The notes under the pieces: generated by a model
The model's input: the letters and a program-made list of their open reading frames with translations, nothing else
Database searches by the model: none
Told to the model about the DNA's origin: nothing
Source: a virus
Virus record (IMG/VR): IMGVR_UViG_3300028920_000140
Coordinates: 1 to 41,459 of that record
DNA: 41,459 bases
Reading direction: 5' to 3' (one strand)
Shown here: one piece after another, positions 6,794 through 19,276 of the stretch
Numbering within the stretch: the stretch's first letter is position 1
Layout of the letters: each line of letters starts with the position of its first letter
Program-made: the position numbers and the translations under genes

Positions 6794-6821
6794 TTGACAT
6801 TGTCACCAATAACCGTATACT
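6794..6821 (+). promoter_or_regulatory. Main rightward promoter, TTGACA-16-TATACT
   Basis: TTGACA (6794-6799) and TATACT (6816-6821) are 16 bases apart. The promoter drives the Cro-sized gene starting at 6855. Its spacer contains the first of two operator-like direct repeats. Confidence 0.75.
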
Positions 6822-6854: not shown

Positions 6855-7019
6855 ATGAAAGTAACACCAGAAATGATTAGACAGAAGTACAAGAGCGTAT
6901 TAGCATTTTCAAGAATGCTGAAGGTTACTCCGGCATCCGTTTACAAGGCTATTAACGGCGGTGCATCTATGGACAAATTACGTAAGAAAATTTACGAATT
7001 TATGGAGGTAGAGCAATGA
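6855..7019 (+). CDS. Cro-like HTH regulator, 54 aa
   Basis: ATG at 6855 follows AAAGGAGGAAAAG. The product contains a compact helix-turn-helix (residues 13-34: SVLAFSRMLKVTPASVYKAI) of the Cro type and a short C-terminal helix. Being the first gene of the rightward operon, next to the divergent promoters, it is the natural candidate to bind the repeats at 6803-6841. The stop overlaps the ATG of the ParB-like gene (ATGA). No CI-type repressor was found opposite it. A lytic lifestyle, or a different lysogeny control, remains possible. Confidence 0.75.
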   Translation: MKVTPEMIRQKYKSVLAFSRMLKVTPASVYKAINGGASMDKLRKKIYEFMEVEQ

Positions 7020-8194
7020 ATCAGACCACTTTGTTTGAAGCTTTAGAAAATATTGAAAAATTAAAACCAAAAGATTTGAAAGAAGTTTTTTCGTTTCTTA
7101 AAAAATTATCGCTAGAAGAAAGAATAGCGAAAATTAACGAAATTAGGGAAACACTTCATTTTTTTAGTCCTTTTAAAAATGAACCTGTTGATTTTGTCAA
7201 ATGGGTTAAAAATGAAGATGTGGCTGCAAACGATTATAATCCAAATAAAGTAGCTCCTCCGGAAATGGAATTGCTTGAAGTTTCTATTATGAATGATGGA
7301 TATACACAGCCAATTGTTACTTGGGATAATCACGAAAAAGGGAAAATTGAAGTTATAGATGGATTTCACAGAAACAGAGTAGGAAAAGAATCAAAGGTTG
7401 TAAATCAAAGAGTAAAAGGATATTTACCTGTTGTAAATATCAGAACTGAGCAATCTGGGAAGAATGACAGAATTGCATCAACGATTAGACACAATAGAGC
7501 AAGAGGAAAACACCAAGTAAATGCAATGTCTGAAATTGTAATAGAGCTGAAAAATAGAAATTGGTCAAATGCAAGGATTTCTAAACAACTCGGAATGGAT
7601 GAAGAAGAGGTCTTAAGGCTTTGCCAGGTATCAGGTCTTGAACATCTTTTTAGTGATAATGATTTTTCAAGATCATGGGAATCGTCTGATGTTTCTGGAA
7701 AGTATGAGCCGATAACTGACGATATTGAACAAGACTGTTTTGATTTATATAGGATACCAAATGAAAAAGATGATGATAGAATATTTCACACACATGACAA
7801 ATGGGAATGCCACAAAGCAGGTTTTTATGCATCAAAAAAAGAAGGAATGACTAAAGAAGAATGTGAGCTGTTTTATGCTGATTTTCTTAAAGATGATATT
7901 AGATTTCGTAATGCACTAGACCATGTTATAAAAGAATGGAAATATTCTTGCGAGCATTATTTGACGAATAAAGCAATGAATAGAATAGCGTGGTTAGGAC
8001 AAGCATCTGTTTGCTATGACTCTGGAATACCTAGCATTTATTGTTCTGGTTTCAATTTACTTTCAGAAGATGAGCAGGATAGAGCAAACAACACAGCTTT
8101 GGAATATCTAAACGAGTGGCTAAAAGCGAACAATAGAGAAGAAGTTGATATAAATACTGGTCTTAGTAACGGAAGACAAACGGAGTTGTACTAA
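7016..8194 (+). CDS. ParB/sulfiredoxin-fold protein, IbrB-like
   Basis: 392 residues. After a helical N-terminus (1-52) a ParB-like domain spans about 56-165, with the core motif IDGFHRNR at 114-121. A helix-turn-helix follows at about 176-206 (NWSNARISKQLGMDEEEVLR). The C-terminal 150 residues (FHTHDKWECHKAGFY and beyond) are a conserved-looking domain I cannot name. It overlaps the PAPS-reductase-like gene by one base, and the two are the usual partners known as IbrB and IbrA in E. coli, where they regulate eib genes. The pairing is common in phages; the biochemical role is not settled and may be DNA- or nucleotide-directed sulfur or ATP chemistry. Confidence 0.78.
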   Translation: MNQTTLFEALENIEKLKPKDLKEVFSFLKKLSLEERIAKINEIRETLHFFSPFKNEPVDFVKWVKNEDVAANDYNPNKVAPPEMELLEVSIMNDGYTQPIVTWDNHEKGKIEVIDGFHRNRVGKESKVVNQRVKGYLPVVNIRTEQSGKNDRIASTIRHNRARGKHQVNAMSEIVIELKNRNWSNARISKQLGMDEEEVLRLCQVSGLEHLFSDNDFSRSWESSDVSGKYEPITDDIEQDCFDLYRIPNEKDDDRIFHTHDKWECHKAGFYASKKEGMTKEECELFYADFLKDDIRFRNALDHVIKEWKYSCEHYLTNKAMNRIAWLGQASVCYDSGIPSIYCSGFNLLSEDEQDRANNTALEYLNEWLKANNREEVDINTGLSNGRQTELY

Positions 8195-9417
8195 TGGCTA
8201 CAAAAAAATATACAAACAAAAGTGTTTTGGAAGCATCAAAAGAAAGAATATCTAATATTTTTGATAATTTTGAAAATTATTACATAAGTTTTTCTGGAGG
8301 AAAAGATAGTACCGTAATGACTCATTTAGTTATGGATGAGGCAACAAAAAGAGGTAAGAAAGTTGGATTATTGATTATTGATCTTGAAGCTCAATATAAG
8401 CACACGATAGAACATGTAAGAGAAATTGTTGAAACATACAAAGAACATATTGATTTACATTGGTTTTGTGGAGAACTGTTGCTTAGAAATGCTGTAAGCG
8501 ATTTCCAGCCAAAATGGGTTTGCTGGGATGAAGAGAATAAAGATATTTGGGTAAGGGAAAAACCTGCAGAGCAATCAGATTTGAGCCAGTACGATTTCTA
8601 CATACCAAAAATGGAGTTTGAGGAATTTATGGTTATTTTTGGGAAATGGTATGCTAAAGACAAATTGACAGCAGGATTTATCGGGATAAGAGCAGATGAG
8701 AGTTTGCACAGATATAGAGCTATTGTTGCTGAAAAAAAGGGGTTGATGTTTAATAATTGGAAATGGACTACAAAATTAACACAATATCTTTATAATGTTT
8801 ATCCAATTTATGATTGGAGAACTGAAGATATATGGATATTTCATACAAAAAACAAACACTTGGCTCATAACAAAGTTTATGATCTCATGACAATGGCAGG
8901 TGTTAAACTAAGTAATCAGAGACTTTGCCAGCCTTATGGAGATGACCAAAAAAAAGGTCTATGGTTATACCACATACTTGAACCTGACACGTGGTATAAA
9001 TTATTAAATAGAGTTTCTGGAGTTAATAGCGGAGCGTTATACATACAAGAACATGGCAACATAAACGGATACAATGATATAACTAAACCAGACAATCACA
9101 CGTGGGAATCATATACAAACTATTTGCTAAAATCACTTCCACATAAAATGCAAGTTCACTATAAAGAACGTTTCAGAAAATTTATTGTTGGGTGGAAAAA
9201 AAGAGGTTACAGCAAGATACCTGATGAGGCGCCACATGATTTAGAAGTAAAGCAATGGGCTCCGTCGTGGAAAAGAATGGCAAGATGCATTTTAAGGAAT
9301 GATTATTATTGCAAAGGTCTTGGTCAAACACAGCCAAAATCGGAAGCATACGAAAAATACAAGTCAATTAAAGAAAAAAGAAGGCTTGAAAATCAGTTAC
9401 AAAGTAATCAAAAATAG
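8194..9417 (+). CDS. PAPS reductase-like ATP-pyrophosphatase, IbrA-like (DUF3440)
   Basis: 407 residues. The PP-loop SGGKDST lies at 34-40 (YYISFSGGKDSTVMTH). IGIRADES and YDWRTEDIW, further on, are standard in the phosphoadenosine phosphosulfate reductase fold. The C-terminal half is the DUF3440 region seen in IbrA proteins. These enzymes bind ATP or an adenylated sulfur compound; whether this one is a true reductase is unlikely, because it lacks an obvious C-terminal redox cysteine motif. The ATG shares a base with the stop of the ParB-like gene, so the pair is made together early in infection. Confidence 0.85.
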   Translation: MATKKYTNKSVLEASKERISNIFDNFENYYISFSGGKDSTVMTHLVMDEATKRGKKVGLLIIDLEAQYKHTIEHVREIVETYKEHIDLHWFCGELLLRNAVSDFQPKWVCWDEENKDIWVREKPAEQSDLSQYDFYIPKMEFEEFMVIFGKWYAKDKLTAGFIGIRADESLHRYRAIVAEKKGLMFNNWKWTTKLTQYLYNVYPIYDWRTEDIWIFHTKNKHLAHNKVYDLMTMAGVKLSNQRLCQPYGDDQKKGLWLYHILEPDTWYKLLNRVSGVNSGALYIQEHGNINGYNDITKPDNHTWESYTNYLLKSLPHKMQVHYKERFRKFIVGWKKRGYSKIPDEAPHDLEVKQWAPSWKRMARCILRNDYYCKGLGQTQPKSEAYEKYKSIKEKRRLENQLQSNQK

Positions 9418-9433
9418 TATTTTCATGTTTTTG

Positions 9434-9462
9434 TTGACTTTTGTATTCCTATTTTTTAAGAT
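9434..9462 (+). promoter_or_regulatory. Possible rightward promoter, TTGACT-17-TAAGAT
   Basis: TTGACT (9434-9439) and TAAGAT (9457-9462) are 17 bases apart in the short gap after the IbrA-like gene. It would give the replication genes a second start. The -10 element is weak. Confidence 0.45.
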
Positions 9463-9491
9463 TAAGATTAACTTTAACCTATGAGGTAAAC

Positions 9492-9665
9492 ATGAACTGG
9501 AACAAATTTAAAGCGAAACTGATTGAAAGAGGATTAACAATCAAGCAATGGTGCAAGGATAACGCTTTTGATTATGAGCGTTATAAGAATTTAAGGGCTG
9601 GTCTTGTTAAAATAAAAGAGGAGGAAAAAAAACTTTTTGATTCTGTATTGAAATGGGGTGAGTAA
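9492..9665 (+). CDS. Small HTH protein, 57 aa
   Basis: ATG at 9492 follows GAGGTAAAC. The protein (MNWNKFKAKLIERGLTIKQW at the start) looks like a minimal DNA-binding fold, with a putative recognition helix around residues 17-38. Its stop TAA shares a base with the ATG of the replication initiator gene. It may be a regulator of the replication genes. The HTH call is by eye and of moderate strength. Confidence 0.6.
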   Translation: MNWNKFKAKLIERGLTIKQWCKDNAFDYERYKNLRAGLVKIKEEEKKLFDSVLKWGE

Positions 9666-10426
9666 TGAACAGAGGATATGTAAAAGTATGGCGAAAATTT
9701 CAAGATTCATTCTTTTACAATGATTCTGAGGCTGTACATTTATGGCTGCATATTCTTTTGTCTGTTAATCATAAAGATAGAGAATTTATGTTTAACGGAA
9801 AGCGTCAAAGCTGCAAAACTGGAAGCATGATTACTGGGATGTCAAAGTTATCTGAAATTACCGGGATTAATAGAAGTAAAATTAAAAGGCTTTTGGATAT
9901 GTTCGAAAGTGAAACGCTAATTGAAACGCAAAGAAACAATAAATTTTCAATAATTTCAGTGATTAACTGGGACGAGCATCAGAGCATTGAAACGCAAAAT
10001 GAAACGCCAGTGAAACGCCAGCGAAACGCTAGTGAAACGCCAGTGAACCCAAACAAGAATTATAAGAATGATAAGAATGAAAAGAAGATCAAAGAAAAAA
10101 TAAAAAAAGAAAAATTCGGTGAATTTCTAAATGTACTCTTGACTGAAGATGAAAGAGAAAAGTTGAATTTTCTTTTTGGGTACGTAAATGCAGAAATGAA
10201 AATAGAAAATCTTTCTACTTATCTCCAAAGCACAAATTGCAAGAAATACAAAGATCACTATGCTACGATTTTAAGCTGGGCAAGAAAAAACGGTGAGAAT
10301 TATGATTTATCTCTGGCAAGACAGGCATCTAAAAAACAATCTAAAGAAGATTATGAGAAAGAAAAGAAAGAAGATGAAGCAATGCAGGAAATGATTAGAA
10401 CATTAGCAAGAGGGGGTACGGTATGA
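9665..10426 (+). CDS. Phage replication initiator / replisome organiser
   Basis: 253 residues. The N-terminal winged-helix type domain (MNRGYVKVWRKFQDSFFYND, then SKLSEITGINRSKIKRLLDM, then INWDEHQ) is typical of phage initiators with a DnaD/RepA-like N-terminus. A Lys- and Asn-rich linker follows at about 125-150, and the rest is helical. The linker is encoded by the iteron and AT-rich segment at 9910-10110, so the protein probably binds its own coding sequence, as lambda O and DnaD-type organisers do. The following gene may be a helicase loader or partner. Family well supported; exact partner unknown. Confidence 0.78.
   Translation: MNRGYVKVWRKFQDSFFYNDSEAVHLWLHILLSVNHKDREFMFNGKRQSCKTGSMITGMSKLSEITGINRSKIKRLLDMFESETLIETQRNNKFSIISVINWDEHQSIETQNETPVKRQRNASETPVNPNKNYKNDKNEKKIKEKIKKEKFGEFLNVLLTEDEREKLNFLFGYVNAEMKIENLSTYLQSTNCKKYKDHYATILSWARKNGENYDLSLARQASKKQSKEDYEKEKKEDEAMQEMIRTLARGGTV
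9910..10050 (+). repeat. Iterons inside the initiator gene (replication origin candidate)
   Basis: TGAAACGC occurs at 9910, 9922, 9988, 10000, 10011 and 10033, with CGAAACGC at 10022 and a degenerate TGAACCC at 10044. From 10000 on the spacing is exactly 11 bases, about one helical turn. Because 11 is not a multiple of three, the repeats are read in shifting frames, so protein sequence alone cannot explain them. An A/T-rich tract (10050-10110) follows, suited to unwinding. Confidence 0.85.
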
Positions 10427-11064
10427 AAATACAAGAAGTGCTTAATGATTATGATGTTAAGCATTATACGAATCAATACGGCTCAAATCTTGTCAACAGG
10501 TCCTTTAGTATTTTTGAAAAAAAATATAAAGAAGGTCGTGTAAAAGCAGGATATGAAAGATCTTATCTGATTAAGATAATAGAAAATCTTGACAAGAAGC
10601 AGCAGGAATCTAAAAATGATAACAAAGACAGCAAAGAGAACTATTCCAGGATGATAGAAGTAGCACATAATTTTTATGACATTGTGTCTAAAAAACATGA
10701 TTTTGATAAAGAAATTTATGTAAAAAGATATTTTAACATGACAGACCAACAGAAGGATCAAATAGAAAACGATGCTAAAAGGACTATCTGGTATCAGGAA
10801 AGGAATATTAGAGCAGAAAATAAAACTAAGATACAATCCACAATGAGAGATGAATTTCATGCACACAGCAGTGCAGATATACTGAGGAACGCTTTTAATT
10901 TAGGCGGGAAAGGCTTTCTTTCTTTAGCTTCTAACAAGAGCGAAAATTTGAAAAAAGTTTTTCTGGATATTGAAGCAGAAGCAATTCAAGAAGCAATATT
11001 CTGCTTGCTTTATGTTACTAGAAAAAACCGGAGATATGAAGGGGGTGTAGATTATGATGTATAA
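10423..11064 (+). CDS. Hypothetical protein, 213 aa, replication-module partner
   Basis: ATG at 10423 overlaps the end of the initiator gene and follows a GGGGG site. The protein is mostly helical and charged, with a Lys/Asp/Asn-rich stretch near residues 58-75 and a long C-terminal helix. No Walker motif is visible, so it is not a classical DnaC-like loader. Its place directly after the initiator suggests a replication accessory protein, by context only. Confidence 0.65.
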   Translation: MKIQEVLNDYDVKHYTNQYGSNLVNRSFSIFEKKYKEGRVKAGYERSYLIKIIENLDKKQQESKNDNKDSKENYSRMIEVAHNFYDIVSKKHDFDKEIYVKRYFNMTDQQKDQIENDAKRTIWYQERNIRAENKTKIQSTMRDEFHAHSSADILRNAFNLGGKGFLSLASNKSENLKKVFLDIEAEAIQEAIFCLLYVTRKNRRYEGGVDYDV

Positions 11065-11344
11065 CACATCAAGATCCTGCGAAAATTGCAAGCATTACAA
11101 TGCGGTCATACAGGACAACTTTACAGACTGGGGATGGTGCAAGCAATTGAAGGTGTGCGATACAGCGAAAGAGACTGGCGATATACTTGTTCTTGGAACA
11201 CATGAATCATCGGTGTTTTTCTCAAAATATTTTTGCTGTAAACATTGGAGCCAGGAGGCAAAAAATGGGTTGCATAAAACAGCAAAATCGGAAGACAATC
11301 ACAGCGATCCTTGCAAAAGGGATTCAGAAACACAGATGATGTAG
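11054..11344 (+). CDS. Cys-rich zinc-binding-type protein, 96 aa
   Basis: ATG at 11054 follows GGGGGTGTAGATT. SCENCKHY near the start, WGWCKQLKVC in the middle and YFCCKHW later form the C-x2-C plus C..C pattern common in small phage zinc proteins. The C-terminal 30 residues are polar and poorly structured, and a second frame with its own ribosome binding site overlaps them. Function unknown. Confidence 0.65.
   Translation: MMYNTSRSCENCKHYNAVIQDNFTDWGWCKQLKVCDTAKETGDILVLGTHESSVFFSKYFCCKHWSQEAKNGLHKTAKSEDNHSDPCKRDSETQMM
11265..11339 (+). CDS. Possible overlapping 24-aa micro-ORF
   Basis: ATG at 11265 lies five bases after a strong AGGAGG in the middle of the Cys-rich gene, in another frame. 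The product is MGCIKQQNRKTITAILAKGI plus four residues, a basic amphipathic peptide. The site may instead be a chance match. Confidence 0.3.
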   Translation: MGCIKQQNRKTITAILAKGIQKHR

Positions 11345-11355
11345 GAGGCAATTAA

Positions 11356-11757
11356 ATGGGAGAAAGTAATTTTAAAATGATAGATAGCGAAGTTAAGGAT
11401 TTGCAATACAGTACCAATTTTTATTACCAAAAAAACGTTAAGACAGATCATGGCATGGACGTTAGCAGTTTTATTAATATGTGGACCAGCGGAAAGACGG
11501 CTGAGGTAGCTCTTACAGTTACGCTATTCAATTACAATAAGGATGCCCGATTTCTATGCACTGTTTCATATCACGGTCTGTTTGAGTGGGATGAAGGAAT
11601 GAGCAATGAAGATTTAAAAACAAATCTTAACTATGTAGCTCCTGGAGTTCTTTATTCTTATGTCAGACCAATTTTAATTCAGGTTTTAGAGTTATTCAAG
11701 ATGCCAGTTGTGCATATACCACTTATGATTTTAAATATAGAAGAGAAGGATAATTAA
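11356..11757 (+). CDS. SecB-like chaperone
   Basis: 133 residues. The second half has the SecB pattern: beta strands VALTVTLFNY and FLCTVSYHGLFEW, then residues 92-123 (NYVAPGVLYSYVRPILIQVL, then MPVVHIPLMIL). These correspond to the SecB ILFPYAR helix and the FPxLxLxPVNF strand. SecB is a tetrameric export chaperone that keeps precursors unfolded. Stand-alone SecB-like proteins also serve as chaperones in toxin-antitoxin-chaperone systems. Here it lies in the early operon with no adjacent toxin pair. It may hold phage proteins or hijack host SecA or the export path. Fold call good; role unknown. Confidence 0.75.
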   Translation: MGESNFKMIDSEVKDLQYSTNFYYQKNVKTDHGMDVSSFINMWTSGKTAEVALTVTLFNYNKDARFLCTVSYHGLFEWDEGMSNEDLKTNLNYVAPGVLYSYVRPILIQVLELFKMPVVHIPLMILNIEEKDN

Positions 11758-11952
11758 ATGGAAAAACTAATGACTAATCAGTGCCGGATAGTATACGAAT
11801 GCCTGCATACACTGGATGAACCTTGCGTTTATTACAGCCCTAAAGATGACAATGAAAATCAGTGTCAGTATATGGACTGCATGGGAAGATGTAACAGCAC
11901 GGTTGCGAAGGTGAGTATGCTTTACGTAAGTTTCAACAGGGAGGTAGAATGA
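11758..11952 (+). CDS. Cys-rich hypothetical protein, 64 aa
   Basis: ATG at 11758 follows AAGGATAATTAA. Six cysteines (for example CRIVYEC, PCVYY, QCQYMDCMGRC) suggest a small metal-binding protein. The stop overlaps the next start (ATGA). No family recognised. Confidence 0.6.
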   Translation: MEKLMTNQCRIVYECLHTLDEPCVYYSPKDDNENQCQYMDCMGRCNSTVAKVSMLYVSFNREVE

Positions 11953-12308
11953 GAACTTGTAGAAAATGCGGGAAAAGAATAACAAGAGAGCAATTATTGT
12001 TTGCTTCTAGGACACAGAGACATATAATGCTGTGCCAAAATTGCTTTCTAAGCCACGAAAAGAGACTGGCTAGGGTCGGAGGCAAGACACAGATCGAAAA
12101 AGAGATCAGGCGTGAAATACGGACGCTAGACGGTACGTTGCAGAAGTTAGAAGATTATCTTGAAATACTTAATGACGAAGAATTTGCAGTATTACGGCAT
12201 AAAATCAAAAATTCGGATAATAAAAGTGTTTTCCGGATTAATCGACTTTATGTGAAAAGAGAAGAGATTTTAAGATTGCTGGAAGATTATTATTTTGAGA
12301 TTGTTTAA
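11949..12308 (+). CDS. Zinc-ribbon plus helical protein, 119 aa; late-regulator candidate
   Basis: The N-terminus has CRKCGKRI, then MLCQNC, forming a C-x2-C ... C-x2-C zinc ribbon over residues 4-32. A basic helical region follows, then a long helical C-terminus. Start at 11949 follows GGGAGGTAGA. It is the last gene of the early rightward operon and lies just before the terminase genes, where many phages encode their late activator. No sigma or RinA-like signature was recognised, so that role is only positional inference. Confidence 0.65.
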   Translation: MRTCRKCGKRITREQLLFASRTQRHIMLCQNCFLSHEKRLARVGGKTQIEKEIRREIRTLDGTLQKLEDYLEILNDEEFAVLRHKIKNSDNKSVFRINRLYVKREEILRLLEDYYFEIV

Positions 12309-16314: not shown

Positions 16315-17206
16315 TTTGACCAACTTCCCCCCAAGTTCAGCAGGTTCTTATGGATGGGAGCCTGCTGTTTTTTCTTTGGATGCTAAAGATACTTTGTTCG
16401 CAATCAACAAGCAAAGAGTACAAAGTCTGGGAAAGAAAAAGCCCGCTAAACCTTTAATCTTGAATCCGCCTAAAACTGTTGAAATGGCTTACTACCAGGC
16501 TTTAAAAAAACTTGTTAAGTATATGACAAAAAAAACAAATGAAATTATTATTGACAAGTTTCCGGGACTTAAAGAGCTATACAAAGCGGAAATGAATCTT
16601 GATGGATACGGAAACGAGATTGTTAATACAGTAGGCGGGATTGATTTTGTGGTTTCAAGAATATTTGAAGAACAGGCGGAACAAGTTACATTGTCAATGT
16701 TTCAGGAAACTAACCAGTTTTCAAATAACCAGTTCAAAAGACAGTCAGTCAAAGTTGTCGGGGTGGAGCTCCTGACAAATGAATCCTTTCTAAAACCGTT
16801 AGCAAATTCTTGGACGGCTGCAAATGTAGACTTAATTAAAACTATTCCAAGTCAGTATTTTAATCAAATTGAACAGCTTGTTTTGACAAATGTTGAAAAA
16901 GGTGTTTCAACTAAGGAGTTAAGAGATAGTCTTGTTAAGTTGTCAGGGAAAACAGAAAAAAGATGCATGGTAATAGCAAGAGATCAGATTGGAAAACTTA
17001 ACGGGCAGATTAATAGGTCAAGGTCAGTTTCTGCAGGTCTTACTAATTTTATATGGCGAACAGCTCAAGACCCTTCTGTAAGAGATTCACATCAAATGTT
17101 AGATAATAAAAAGTTTTCATGGGAAGATGGTGCTGACGGTCTATTCCCAGGTCAAGAAATTCAATGCAGATGCGTTGCAATTAATGATTATTCTATTTTT
17201 TATTGA
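16307..17206 (+). CDS. Minor head protein, Mu gpF-like
   Basis: 299 residues. The C-terminal 100 residues carry the phage Mu F domain: ARDQIGKLNGQINRSR, NFIWRTAQDPSVRDSH, and a final SWEDGADGLFPGQEIQCRCVA. The N-terminal 60 residues are disordered and Pro/Ser-rich. Such proteins join the head inside or near the portal and help morphogenesis. The last 14 bases overlap the convergent end of cassette 2. Confidence 0.9.
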   Translation: MNSLTNFPPSSAGSYGWEPAVFSLDAKDTLFAINKQRVQSLGKKKPAKPLILNPPKTVEMAYYQALKKLVKYMTKKTNEIIIDKFPGLKELYKAEMNLDGYGNEIVNTVGGIDFVVSRIFEEQAEQVTLSMFQETNQFSNNQFKRQSVKVVGVELLTNESFLKPLANSWTAANVDLIKTIPSQYFNQIEQLVLTNVEKGVSTKELRDSLVKLSGKTEKRCMVIARDQIGKLNGQINRSRSVSAGLTNFIWRTAQDPSVRDSHQMLDNKKFSWEDGADGLFPGQEIQCRCVAINDYSIFY

Positions 17207-17372
17207 TATTTTTTCTTAAAGGACAATTTTCAAGAATACCTTCAATAGGGATTAGTTTCACGCTGCATTGAAAAGGATGAGTGCATATTATTTTTTTATG
17301 CTGTGTTCCAGGAATGTTTCGCAATCTTGCATATTCTGCACAGTCTTGGCAAGTCTTTTCGTAATTTCTCAT
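17193..17372 (-). CDS. Cys-rich microprotein, 59 aa, cassette 2
   Basis: ATG at 17372 overlaps the TGA of the methyltransferase gene (ATGA). The protein has C-x2-C near the start (TCQDC), then C30, H32, C36 and C50, a possible metal-binding set. It ends by overlapping the plus-strand Mu-F-like gene. No family recognised. Confidence 0.6.
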   Translation of the reverse strand: MRNYEKTCQDCAEYARLRNIPGTQHKKIICTHPFQCSVKLIPIEGILENCPLRKNINKK

Positions 17373-18022
17373 ACTGTCATTCCCACGCTGTGGTGTCGGC
17401 CTGATACAGAAATCGGATGTCCAAACTTGAATTTGAGACGGTCGCTGTTTTCTACAACTTTTTTTACGGTTGAAATGCGGAAATCATAAACAAAAAACGT
17501 GTCAACATCTAAATCAGCGTTTTCAAGAATTGTAAAAGTGTCAGAACAAGTATAGTCATGATTCTCAATTGTATTTGCAGGACCATCAACATAAACAAAA
17601 TCAGCTTCAACATCTTTAAAATCGTAATCATATCGCACGGTCATAGCATCATTATCAACAATCTTGTCATAAACTCTAAATTCAATGTCATTTTTCAACA
17701 AAGTTTCTCTTACTGAATCTTGATAATCTTTGTTTTCGTCTATGCTTATTATTTCACAGAAATTGCCTTTTTTCTGGTATTCAGCAAAAATCATAGTACT
17801 GAGACCAGATCCCAGCTCAATAATACTTTGAGGGCAGTATCTATCCAGCATATCCCACAACTCTAATAATTTATGTTCTACAAAATACTGCATATTCTGT
17901 TTTTTTTCTCTGTTAATTTCCAGTTGTTTTGCTACATTCGGTAAGATTCTAGGCAACAACTTTTGTGCGTTTATGCAATTAAATAGATATTCTTGCCGGT
18001 GTATCTTGTTTTTCAGATCCAT
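17369..18022 (-). CDS. Class I SAM-dependent methyltransferase, cassette 2
   Basis: 217 residues. Motif I is IIELGSGLSTMIFAEY (about 65-80), followed by an acidic strand end ISIDENKDY and a DFVYVDGPANT motif near 136-146. This resembles the small-molecule or sugar O-methyltransferase branch (Methyltransf_24-like) rather than DNA methylases; no NPPY or DPPY motif is present. Start at 18022 follows AGGGGGACAGC. It may alter a cell-surface glycan or another phage or host molecule. Substrate unknown. Confidence 0.75.
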   Translation of the reverse strand: MDLKNKIHRQEYLFNCINAQKLLPRILPNVAKQLEINREKKQNMQYFVEHKLLELWDMLDRYCPQSIIELGSGLSTMIFAEYQKKGNFCEIISIDENKDYQDSVRETLLKNDIEFRVYDKIVDNDAMTVRYDYDFKDVEADFVYVDGPANTIENHDYTCSDTFTILENADLDVDTFFVYDFRISTVKKVVENSDRLKFKFGHPISVSGRHHSVGMTV

Positions 18023-18031
18023 GCTGTCCCC

Positions 18032-18733
18032 CTAAATTGAAAAAATGTTTGTTGTTAAACCTGTTTCTTTCTTTTCTTTTTTCTCTATGCTTAGCTTGCT
18101 GCTGTCAACGTCGTATGTCGCATGATTCAGTGCTAACGGAAATTTCACGCATACATTATCTATTTCTTCCTGATTCTGAATGTAAAAAGCATAATTGATA
18201 ATGTCATAACCACGATATACGATTCCTGAATTATATTCTTTTCCTTCCTCATTCTTGCTGTAATGGAACTTCATTAATCCGTCCTGAATAATATCGTAAA
18301 TATCAGTATTATCCAACATCCACAAGTATTCATCCATTTTCATTACAAAACATATCTCATATCGTTTCAGCTTTCTCCCTGCTGCAAGATTAGCCTTATT
18401 ATGACATTCCAGAATATAGCTGTTTAACTTAGTGAATTTTTCAGTTCTTTTTAGCATAATCTGCCAGATTTTTCTCTCTTCAGCTTCTTTACCTTGCAGG
18501 TTATTAACCAGCTTGTCAGTGTTAATGTCAACAGTTGCCGTAAAATTGTCTATTGATTCACCTATACCATTTATTTCATCTTGTATTTGCTTTTGAATAT
18601 TCTCTATCTCAACTTCCTTGTTAGGTTGCACAATGCCATGTACAATAGCAAGCTTGTTGAAATTGACATTTCCAGGACGGTGCAATTTTGCATCATCAAG
18701 ACATGTTATTTCGTTCTTTTTTAATAGTTCCAT
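18032..18733 (-). CDS. Hypothetical protein, 233 aa, cassette 2
   Basis: ATG at 18733 follows GGAGAAAACATT. The N-terminal third is charged and coiled-coil-like (EVEIENIQKQIQDEINGIGE). The C-terminal part is richer in aromatic residues and beta structure (GIVYRGYDIINYAFYIQ). No membrane segment and no recognised motif. It lies between the HTH protein and the methyltransferase in one co-oriented unit. Confidence 0.6.
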   Translation of the reverse strand: MELLKKNEITCLDDAKLHRPGNVNFNKLAIVHGIVQPNKEVEIENIQKQIQDEINGIGESIDNFTATVDINTDKLVNNLQGKEAEERKIWQIMLKRTEKFTKLNSYILECHNKANLAAGRKLKRYEICFVMKMDEYLWMLDNTDIYDIIQDGLMKFHYSKNEEGKEYNSGIVYRGYDIINYAFYIQNQEEIDNVCVKFPLALNHATYDVDSSKLSIEKKEKKETGLTTNIFSI

Positions 18734-19041
18734 AATGTTTTCTCCTCCGTCAAGGTTGCCGTTAGCATCTGTTTTTCTTCATTTGTGACGCCGGGATCTT
18801 TTTTCATTCTACTCTTAAAAGAAATCCTTGCATTCGTGCCACGCTTGCACCAATTATGTTCAAGATTCCATTTAATAAGCTGTGTTTTACTAATCTTAAT
18901 GCCTGTTTCCTCTGAGATTATGTCAGCAATGTTTTGAAAAGACAATCCTGTTTTTTTCTTTTTCCTGATATACGCCTTAGCAAGTGCAAAGTGTAGAATA
19001 GTGTACTTGCTTTCTTTTTTCCAAGTGCAATTCGGTTTCAT
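18721..19041 (-). CDS. HTH DNA-binding protein, cassette 2
   Basis: The start at 19041 (MKPNCTW) avoids a long overlap with the upstream gene; an earlier in-frame start at 19098 is possible. The segment GLSFQNIADIISEETGIKIS, then QLIKWNLEHNWCKRG, is a helix-turn-helix of the type seen in small terminase and transposase-like proteins. The Lys-rich flanks fit DNA binding. It may regulate the cassette or act in packaging choice. Confidence 0.6.
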   Translation of the reverse strand: MKPNCTWKKESKYTILHFALAKAYIRKKKKTGLSFQNIADIISEETGIKISKTQLIKWNLEHNWCKRGTNARISFKSRMKKDPGVTNEEKQMLTATLTEEKTLWNY

Positions 19042-19045
19042 TTCT

Positions 19046-19276
19046 TCAACTTTCAACTCGTTCCTCCAGTTCTTTAAGTTCTTTAATTTTCCTGTCAATG
19101 TTGATACGGTACAGCGTAATTTCCATAAGTTCCTCAGGGGTCGGGCAATACATTATTAACTCTGAAATAAAATCAGTCATAGACTTTCCGGCGTGATGAC
19201 TTTTCCGGCGTAATGTTTGCTCCACCATTGGACGCAATCTTAAATTAACTTGCTTCGTCAGTCTGTAATCATTCAT
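19046..19276 (-). CDS. Ribbon-helix-helix type regulator, cassette 2
   Basis: 76 residues. The first 40 (MNDYRLTKQVNLRLRPMVEQ, then GKSMTDFISELI) show the beta-strand then two-helix pattern of CopG/MetJ-like RHH repressors. A C-terminal helical tail follows. GAGGATTCGAAATT precedes the ATG. As the first gene behind the cassette promoter at 19312-19340, it probably represses that promoter. Confidence 0.65.
   Translation of the reverse strand: MNDYRLTKQVNLRLRPMVEQTLRRKSHHAGKSMTDFISELIMYCPTPEELMEITLYRINIDRKIKELKELEERVES

Follow-up and report, generated by a model that had tools for sequence, protein, structure and literature searches.

A lone, strongly diverged SecB-like chaperone gene in a replication-linked phage operon, with a possible role in counter-defence

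What does a SecB-like chaperone gene do in a phage operon in which no recognisable toxin or antitoxin gene accompanies it? The question is raised by an ORF in the virus record IMGVR_UViG_3300028920_000140 (class virus), which we analysed over its full length of 41,459 bases, called the window below. A reading made from the letters alone, hereafter the sequence-only reading, had described the ORF as a SecB-like export chaperone in a phage early operon. It placed the ORF exactly, at 11356-11757 on the plus strand, where we find an ATG start codon behind the ribosome-binding site TAGGAGGCAATTAA. The features of the locus are as follows.

6794..6821, plus strand: promoter-like TTGACA-16-TATACT, candidate driver of the rightward operon (11/12 consensus match)
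6855..7019, plus strand: repressor-like ORF, 54 aa, at the head of the rightward operon (weak match to phrog_1468, transcriptional repressor, E 0.014)
7016..8194, plus strand: ParB-like protein (phrog_2159, E 2.2e-67)
8194..9417, plus strand: PAPS-reductase-like protein with DUF3440 (PF11922, E 1e-34; PF01507, E 1.4e-14)
Between the PAPS-reductase-like and DnaD-like genes, plus strand: HTH gene (family searches)
9665..10426, plus strand: DnaD-like helicase loader (phrog_2514, E 1.3e-34)
10423..11064, plus strand: ORF 10423, 213 aa, no function assigned (weak phrog_36937; no informative Pfam, NCBIfam or PADLOC family)
11054..11344, plus strand: ORF 11054, 96 aa, Cys-rich, adjoining the SecB-like gene on its 5' side (matches no family)
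11342..11355, plus strand: ribosome-binding site TAGGAGGCAATTAA, strong, ahead of the SecB-like start codon (read directly from the sequence)
11356..11757, plus strand: SecB-like chaperone ORF, ATG, 133 aa (Pfam PF02556, SecB-family profile, SecB fold model)
11758..11952, plus strand: Cys-rich ORF, 64 aa, beginning directly past the SecB-like stop codon (no Pfam, NCBIfam or PADLOC family)
11949..12308, plus strand: 119-aa ORF with N-terminal CxxC motifs, closing the operon (from the sequence; weak phrog_2945)
13185 and 13604: small and large terminase, after the end of the operon (family searches)

The rightward operon is tightly packed, with intergenic distances of -4, -1, 77, -1, -4, -11, 11, 0 and -4 bases from 6855 to 12308, and holds the SecB-like gene between the helicase loader and the terminase. 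The operon is replication-linked. Downstream of the terminase lie the genes for portal, head morphogenesis, protease, major head protein, sheath and baseplate, and from this set we assign the genome to a contractile-tailed phage. Position and packing back the placement of the gene in an early operon, the earliness itself being read from position. The total count of promoter-like sites is about the shuffled mean, and the site at 6794-6821 is a consensus match alone. In composition the SecB-like gene (GC 0.34, GC3 0.33) fits its operon. The small Cys-rich ORFs that flank it have GC3 values of 0.46 (11054-11344) and 0.48 (11758-11952), against 0.23-0.35 in the remainder of the operon. Further along, between head morphogenesis and protease, four minus-strand ORFs (17193-19276) break the row of plus-strand head genes; the two of them that were scanned, ORFs 17369 and 18032, had no informative family match. 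The tight pair of ParB-like and PAPS-reductase/DUF3440 genes (7016-9417) recurs in viral contigs, at 81 and 82 of 143 loci, of which 82 had been collected by means of the PAPS gene, and presumably resembles IbrBA.

The assignment to the SecB family comes from profile searches. Pfam's SecB model (PF02556) matched the protein with 29 bits against a gathering cut-off of 26 (E 1.2e-6), and with 28.2 bits from the DNA. An HMM that we built from 34 SecB-family proteins, with the phage ORF itself excluded, aligned with its residues 3-128 at 50.8 bits; among 5000 shuffles keeping the same residues the highest score was 12.1 bits. Five SecB models of NCBIfam also matched, all well below their equivalog cut-offs; for the export SecB equivalogs the scores were 23.5 versus 102.8 bits (TIGR00809) and 28.4 versus 180 bits (PRK05751). 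Within PADLOC two PD-T4-9_C models were the sole matches (E 4.2e-5, 21.7 bits), and PHROG 21664 aligned through positions 10-119 of its 132 (E 0.0012, 20.2 bits).

An AlphaFold2 model of the protein (pLDDT 75.7, pTM 0.69) has strands at residues 6-19, 34-45, 48-61 and 64-78 and a helix at 84-113, so that the four-stranded sheet and 30-residue helix of the SecB fold are both present in the prediction. The 19 top PDB rows of a Foldseek search with this model were all SecB or SecB-like chains (best E 4.3e-8). VIA-align superposed it on E. coli SecB (1qyn_D) with Z 13.9 and an rmsd of 3.1 over 120 residues; five SecB or SecB-like rows (Z 13.9-11.3) came first, then two streptococcal proteins without an assigned function (9.7 and 9.5), and the rows from Z 6.4 down were unrelated folds, LptE among them. 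The model supports the SecB-like fold proposed from the letters. As to the helix and strand seen there in a sequence motif, LYSYVRPILIQVLEL does fall within the helix, whereas the model renders KMPVV as coil and not as a strand. The alignment given to AlphaFold2 included five viral SecB-like proteins; because of them the model is not independent evidence, and since it leans on that alignment, the family claim rests on the profile. A fold model made from the single sequence was set aside (pLDDT 53; Foldseek matched it to OsmC-like proteins first, with no SecB among the matches listed). Taking profile and modelled fold together, the ORF almost certainly encodes a SecB-fold chaperone, and the label SecB-like, which a missing family match would have undone, is borne out by the Pfam score above cut-off, the gap between 50.8 bits and the shuffles, and the fold model.

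The other half of the original description, that of an export chaperone, is not supported. SecA is contacted by residues D20, E24, L75 and E77 of E. coli SecB (excerpts from PMC4257090). In the phage protein two of these four positions are kept (D15 and L67) and two are replaced (S19 for E24 and T69 for E77), and they vary among TAC-type rows too, that is, among chaperones of toxin-antitoxin-chaperone (TAC) systems. Neither alignment nor model offers a counterpart to the C-terminal helix of export SecBs. R104 (E. coli R111) is identical in all 36 aligned rows, and G74, F76, P96, R104 and P117 are common to the ORF and five export-type SecBs. Substitution of C76 or of Q80 in E. coli SecB influences oligomer formation (excerpts from PMC4257090); here C76 is kept as C68 and Q80 is Y72.

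In a tree of 34 rows, which left out rows shorter than 100 aa and L151, found later, the ORF falls among TAC chaperones, its branch being 2.67 changes per column long; because of this length its exact position is unsure. Support was 81/85 for the fork that joins it to most TAC rows, and the separation of TAC-type from export SecBs had 74/71. Pairwise identity was 27% to L151, at most 23.4% to export SecBs and 19-22% to most TAC chaperones, and plain identity does not tell which of the latter two groups is the nearest kin. The best cellular relative found in 398 genomes of one phylum, G121/L151, scored 26.3 bits with 26% identity over residues 6-127 and stands in a possible TAC, and the next best (G085, G150, G264 and G065) are third genes in CmdT-like modules, so the nearest single relatives are of TAC type. 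A true export chaperone would feed host or phage preproteins to SecA and redirect host export. The passed Pfam cut-off and the retained D20 and L75 agree with such a role, but with E24 and E77 replaced, the C-terminal helix absent and the secB equivalog at 23.5 instead of 102.8 bits we regard it as very improbable. The ORF is probably not an export SecB, judging from replaced SecA residues, missed equivalog cut-off and tree; it is probably an orphan, strongly diverged chaperone of TAC type, a placement that carries middling tree support and a long branch.

SecB-like proteins away from the export operon had been expected usually to belong to TAC systems, and the genomes agree with this. Excerpts from PMC4257090 state that, once the alpha-, beta- and gamma-proteobacteria are set aside, 63% (44/70) of SecB sequences accompany toxin-antitoxin genes, and that certain phages and plasmids carry secB-like genes. 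At E 0.01 we found SecB matches in 28 of 398 genomes of one bacterial phylum, at 33 places, and fetched 32 of the 33 neighbourhoods (G437:C19 was left out). In 15 of the 32, a profile of CmdT-like ADP-ribosyltransferases (ART) matched no further than 2.5 kb from the SecB-like gene, and in one an MqsR profile did so. The ART profile was made from 13 ORFs chosen by eye, 11 from the counted neighbourhoods and 2 from viral loci, so the count of 15 is descriptive; the toxin of L129 independently matches PADLOC PD-T4-9_A (E 2.7e-7). Other neighbourhoods held a GNAT protein (L151), a RAMP-family protein in the gene upstream of the SecB-like one (L135, of which L158 is a near copy), or a ParE/Gp49-like ORF below cut-off next to an ORF taken for HigA by eye (L133). 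The remaining ones hold unclassified neighbours or fragments, which may include partners, and in L162 no SecB-like ORF was found. Scanning viral contigs with the family alignment yielded five loci (L141-L145), all five with two partner genes ahead of the SecB-like gene; L141 and L142 are CmdT-like modules. Both sets of counts agree with the association of secB and toxin-antitoxin genes published in PMC4257090, as far as its excerpts go.

Several of these loci deserve mention in their own right. In L143:7014-8198, L144:7212-8369 and L145:7119-8325 a HEPN-like ORF, an ORF of 123-127 aa without known family and a SecB-like gene follow one another. The Pfam HEPN match falls just under cut-off in the two that were tested (E 8e-4 in L145, 2e-3 in L143), and the rows look like HEPN-type TACs on phages; the module of L145 directly precedes terminase-like genes. 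In L151:9782-11214 a GNAT-family protein (Pfam over cut-off), a 143-aa ORF of no known function and a SecB-like gene stand in a row, possibly a GNAT-type TAC. A separate SecB-like clade (support 95/88; L135:5749-7486, L158:5704-7441, L136, L140 and L153-L157) adjoins other conserved-looking genes. At L159:6294-7508, the place of L102, a SecB-like stretch lies inside an ORF of 404 aa (412 aa as L102) near ORFs that appear integrase-like by eye; L102 was excluded from alignment and profile. PHROG 21664 also matches E. coli SecB (2.6e-5) and, strongly, the TAC chaperones of viral contigs (E as low as 5.8e-26). Together with PHROGs 10298, 20189 and 16879, likewise annotated "unknown function", it matches SecB-like proteins of TAC or TAC-like modules, and on these matches all four could be labelled SecB-like.

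Given these associations, we searched the window for partners. Profiles for ART, CmdA, HEPN, the HEPN partner and MqsR, which do match their own loci, gave no match at E 10 among the 460 window ORFs of at least 25 aa. Single queries for GNAT, HigB, HigA, MqsA and others returned from the window only the SecB-like match itself, and among its 1524 stop-to-stop segments no toxin or antitoxin remnant scored better than E 0.15. The statement that no toxin pair is adjacent therefore stands for recognisable pairs in the window: no cognate toxin and antitoxin of a known partner family lie beside the SecB-like gene. ORF 10423 had no tblastn relative in phages, none in the 398 genomes and no PDB match; ORF 11054 had none in phages, one weak match in the 398 genomes and no PDB match; and no toxin or antitoxin model of Pfam, NCBIfam, PADLOC, PHROG or our local profiles matched either.

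These two ORFs could nevertheless be the toxin (10423) and antitoxin (11054) of an unrecognised TAC that defends against other phages, with the SecB-like protein as its chaperone. Order and packing would suit this arrangement, since the two ORFs overlap by 11 bases and the chaperone gene starts 11 bases further on; two partner genes precede the SecB-like gene on all five other viral contigs, and antitoxin sequences vary widely across CmdTAC homologues (excerpts from PMC9519451). Set against this are the absence of any matching toxin or antitoxin model and the 4-base overlap of ORF 10423 with the helicase loader, a place that in the phage contig L007 is likewise taken by an additional ORF right behind the loader gene. 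GC3 (0.46 for ORF 11054, 0.33 for the chaperone) speaks weakly against a shared recent arrival, and as no relative of ORF 10423 was found, the pairing offers no synteny check. We consider this reading unlikely. That the gene is the leftover of a TAC which lost toxin and antitoxin, its chaperone now without an essential job, strikes us as quite improbable: viral contigs do carry TAC modules (L141-L145) and the branch of the ORF is very long, but the ORF is intact, has a strong ribosome-binding site, sits in a packed operon and keeps the R104 that is invariant across 36 rows, and the 1524 segments yielded no toxin or antitoxin remnant.

Close relatives of the protein did not come to light. Queried by tblastn, phages gave one chance-level match at E up to 10 and plasmids gave none. 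The viral contigs returned no relative to the ORF protein alone, to alignments A1, A3, A4 and A5 or to the terminase, and the genome contigs none to the ORF protein; these contig-search blanks are weak because the search patterns missed the conserved LYSYVR region. A SecB-family search of viral records that share the PAPS gene found none in 50 (of 80 records), and the local SecB-family profile found a SecB-like ORF at none of 82 loci (the ORFs of 80 PAPS-sharing stretches plus L088 and L089), which do not share the phage's head genes. E. coli SecB as tblastn query hit eight phage records. Five of these, whose match is 97-100% identical to enteric SecB, and two from Acinetobacter were rejected as phage SecBs and taken for bacterial DNA, as was MT836042.1, which reads as bacterial genes only. 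The Campylobacter phage records MG065691.1 and MG065686.1 hold E. coli SecB at 100% identity, seemingly bacterial DNA.

This scarcity bears on another role, that of a holdase reserved for the phage's own products: the protein would bind freshly synthesised head, tail or replication proteins and maintain them in solution for assembly, a small SecB-type supplement to the GroEL of the host. Chaperones of the SecB type show little specificity for the unfolded proteins that they bind (excerpts from PMC4257090), CmdC binds the T4 capsid protein (excerpts from PMC11618068), and phage-borne chaperones have been published, DnaJ/DnaK in moraphages (excerpts from PMC12619734); moreover, the operon of the SecB-like gene just precedes the head genes. 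The sequence, however, ties the ORF to no client, and a conserved client would lead one to expect relatives in related phages, where 0 of the 82 PAPS-sharing loci had one, though head genes differ there. We rate this role as rather unlikely. If it applied, the phage would have a small SecB-type holdase that may bear on the origin of capsid-protein recognition by TAC chaperones.

Our leading guess, to which we give roughly one chance in three for the whole chain, is that a TAC-type SecB-fold chaperone without toxin or antitoxin acts in counter-defence. It builds on CmdTAC, the system identical with PD-T4-9 (excerpts from PMC9519451). There, newly made T4 capsid protein displaces CmdC from CmdA, ClpP degrades CmdA and CmdT is freed; CmdA builds up when CmdC is produced, and T4 escape mutants work through an altered protein by which CmdA is stabilised (excerpts from PMC11618068). 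By analogy, the phage chaperone would be made early from the rightward operon and ahead of the capsid protein, a timing that we infer from gene position. A SecB-like tetramer would bind extended aromatic or basic segments in unfolded proteins. In a host bearing a TAC, new capsid protein would draw the host chaperone off the antitoxin, which would be degraded and release the toxin. The second chaperone supplied by the phage could then hold the antitoxin in its folded state or absorb the trigger, and the toxin would stay silent; this counter-defence step is drawn by analogy. The more specific version, in which an orphan CmdC-like protein made early preserves the fold of the host's antitoxins at the time when its own chaperone is titrated by capsid protein, and so silences the TAC, is possible but on balance doubtful. 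If true, counter-defence would run through chaperone supply and not through inhibition of toxin or protease.

In favour of the counter-defence reading we count the SecB fold, PADLOC matches confined to PD-T4-9_C, the TAC-type best relatives, the replication-linked operon, the GC and GC3 match to it, the replacement of two SecA-contact residues and the ART genes in 15 of 32 neighbourhoods. Against it we count the long branch (2.67), the support values of 81/85 and 74/71, the near equality in identity to export SecBs, the two SecA residues that are kept, and the absence of a close relative in the phages, plasmids, viral contigs and genomes searched with the ORF protein. Among the roles that the sequence-only reading had offered to a phage chaperone, we would by analogy prefer disarming a host TAC and place holding virion proteins second.

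Compared with known systems, the protein shares its predicted fold with E. coli export SecB (PF02556, TIGR00809; Z 13.9 to 1qyn) and keeps D20 and L75, but differs in E24, E77, the missing C-terminal helix and a score well below the equivalog cut-off. Its membership of PHROG 21664, an unlabelled SecB-like phage family, is at best remote (20.2 bits). Rv1957, from the M. tuberculosis HigBA1 TAC, shows the same strand order, four strands with a helix of 30 residues (excerpts from PMC6377645), and its structure 5mtw matches the ORF model with a Foldseek E of 2.3e-6 and a VIA Z of 11.9; the phage ORF lacks the long N-terminal helix and the insertion between strands 3 and 4, and the window has no HigBA match to the L133 pair as query. 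The SecB-like protein of L151 (G121) shares an SYxRPI motif with the ORF, but its gene is the third after a GNAT protein and an ORF, and no GNAT match exists in the phage window. Within the limited collection of literature searched and the wording used, we recognised no description of a SecB orphan in a phage or of a chaperone that counters TACs. The family and the occurrence of SecB-like genes in phages were known already; unusual here is a lone, far-diverged SecB-like copy in a replication-linked operon. With CmdC of the anti-phage system CmdTAC the protein shares the SecB family, its only PADLOC matches (PD-T4-9_C) and near relatives that include CmdT-module chaperones, but the window has no CmdT or CmdA match, and the ORF scores 21.7 bits where L141, L145, L129 and L138 score 46.7-96.7. 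CmdTAC fires when a phage protein removes the chaperone from the antitoxin, and a lone phage chaperone would suggest an obvious counter-move.
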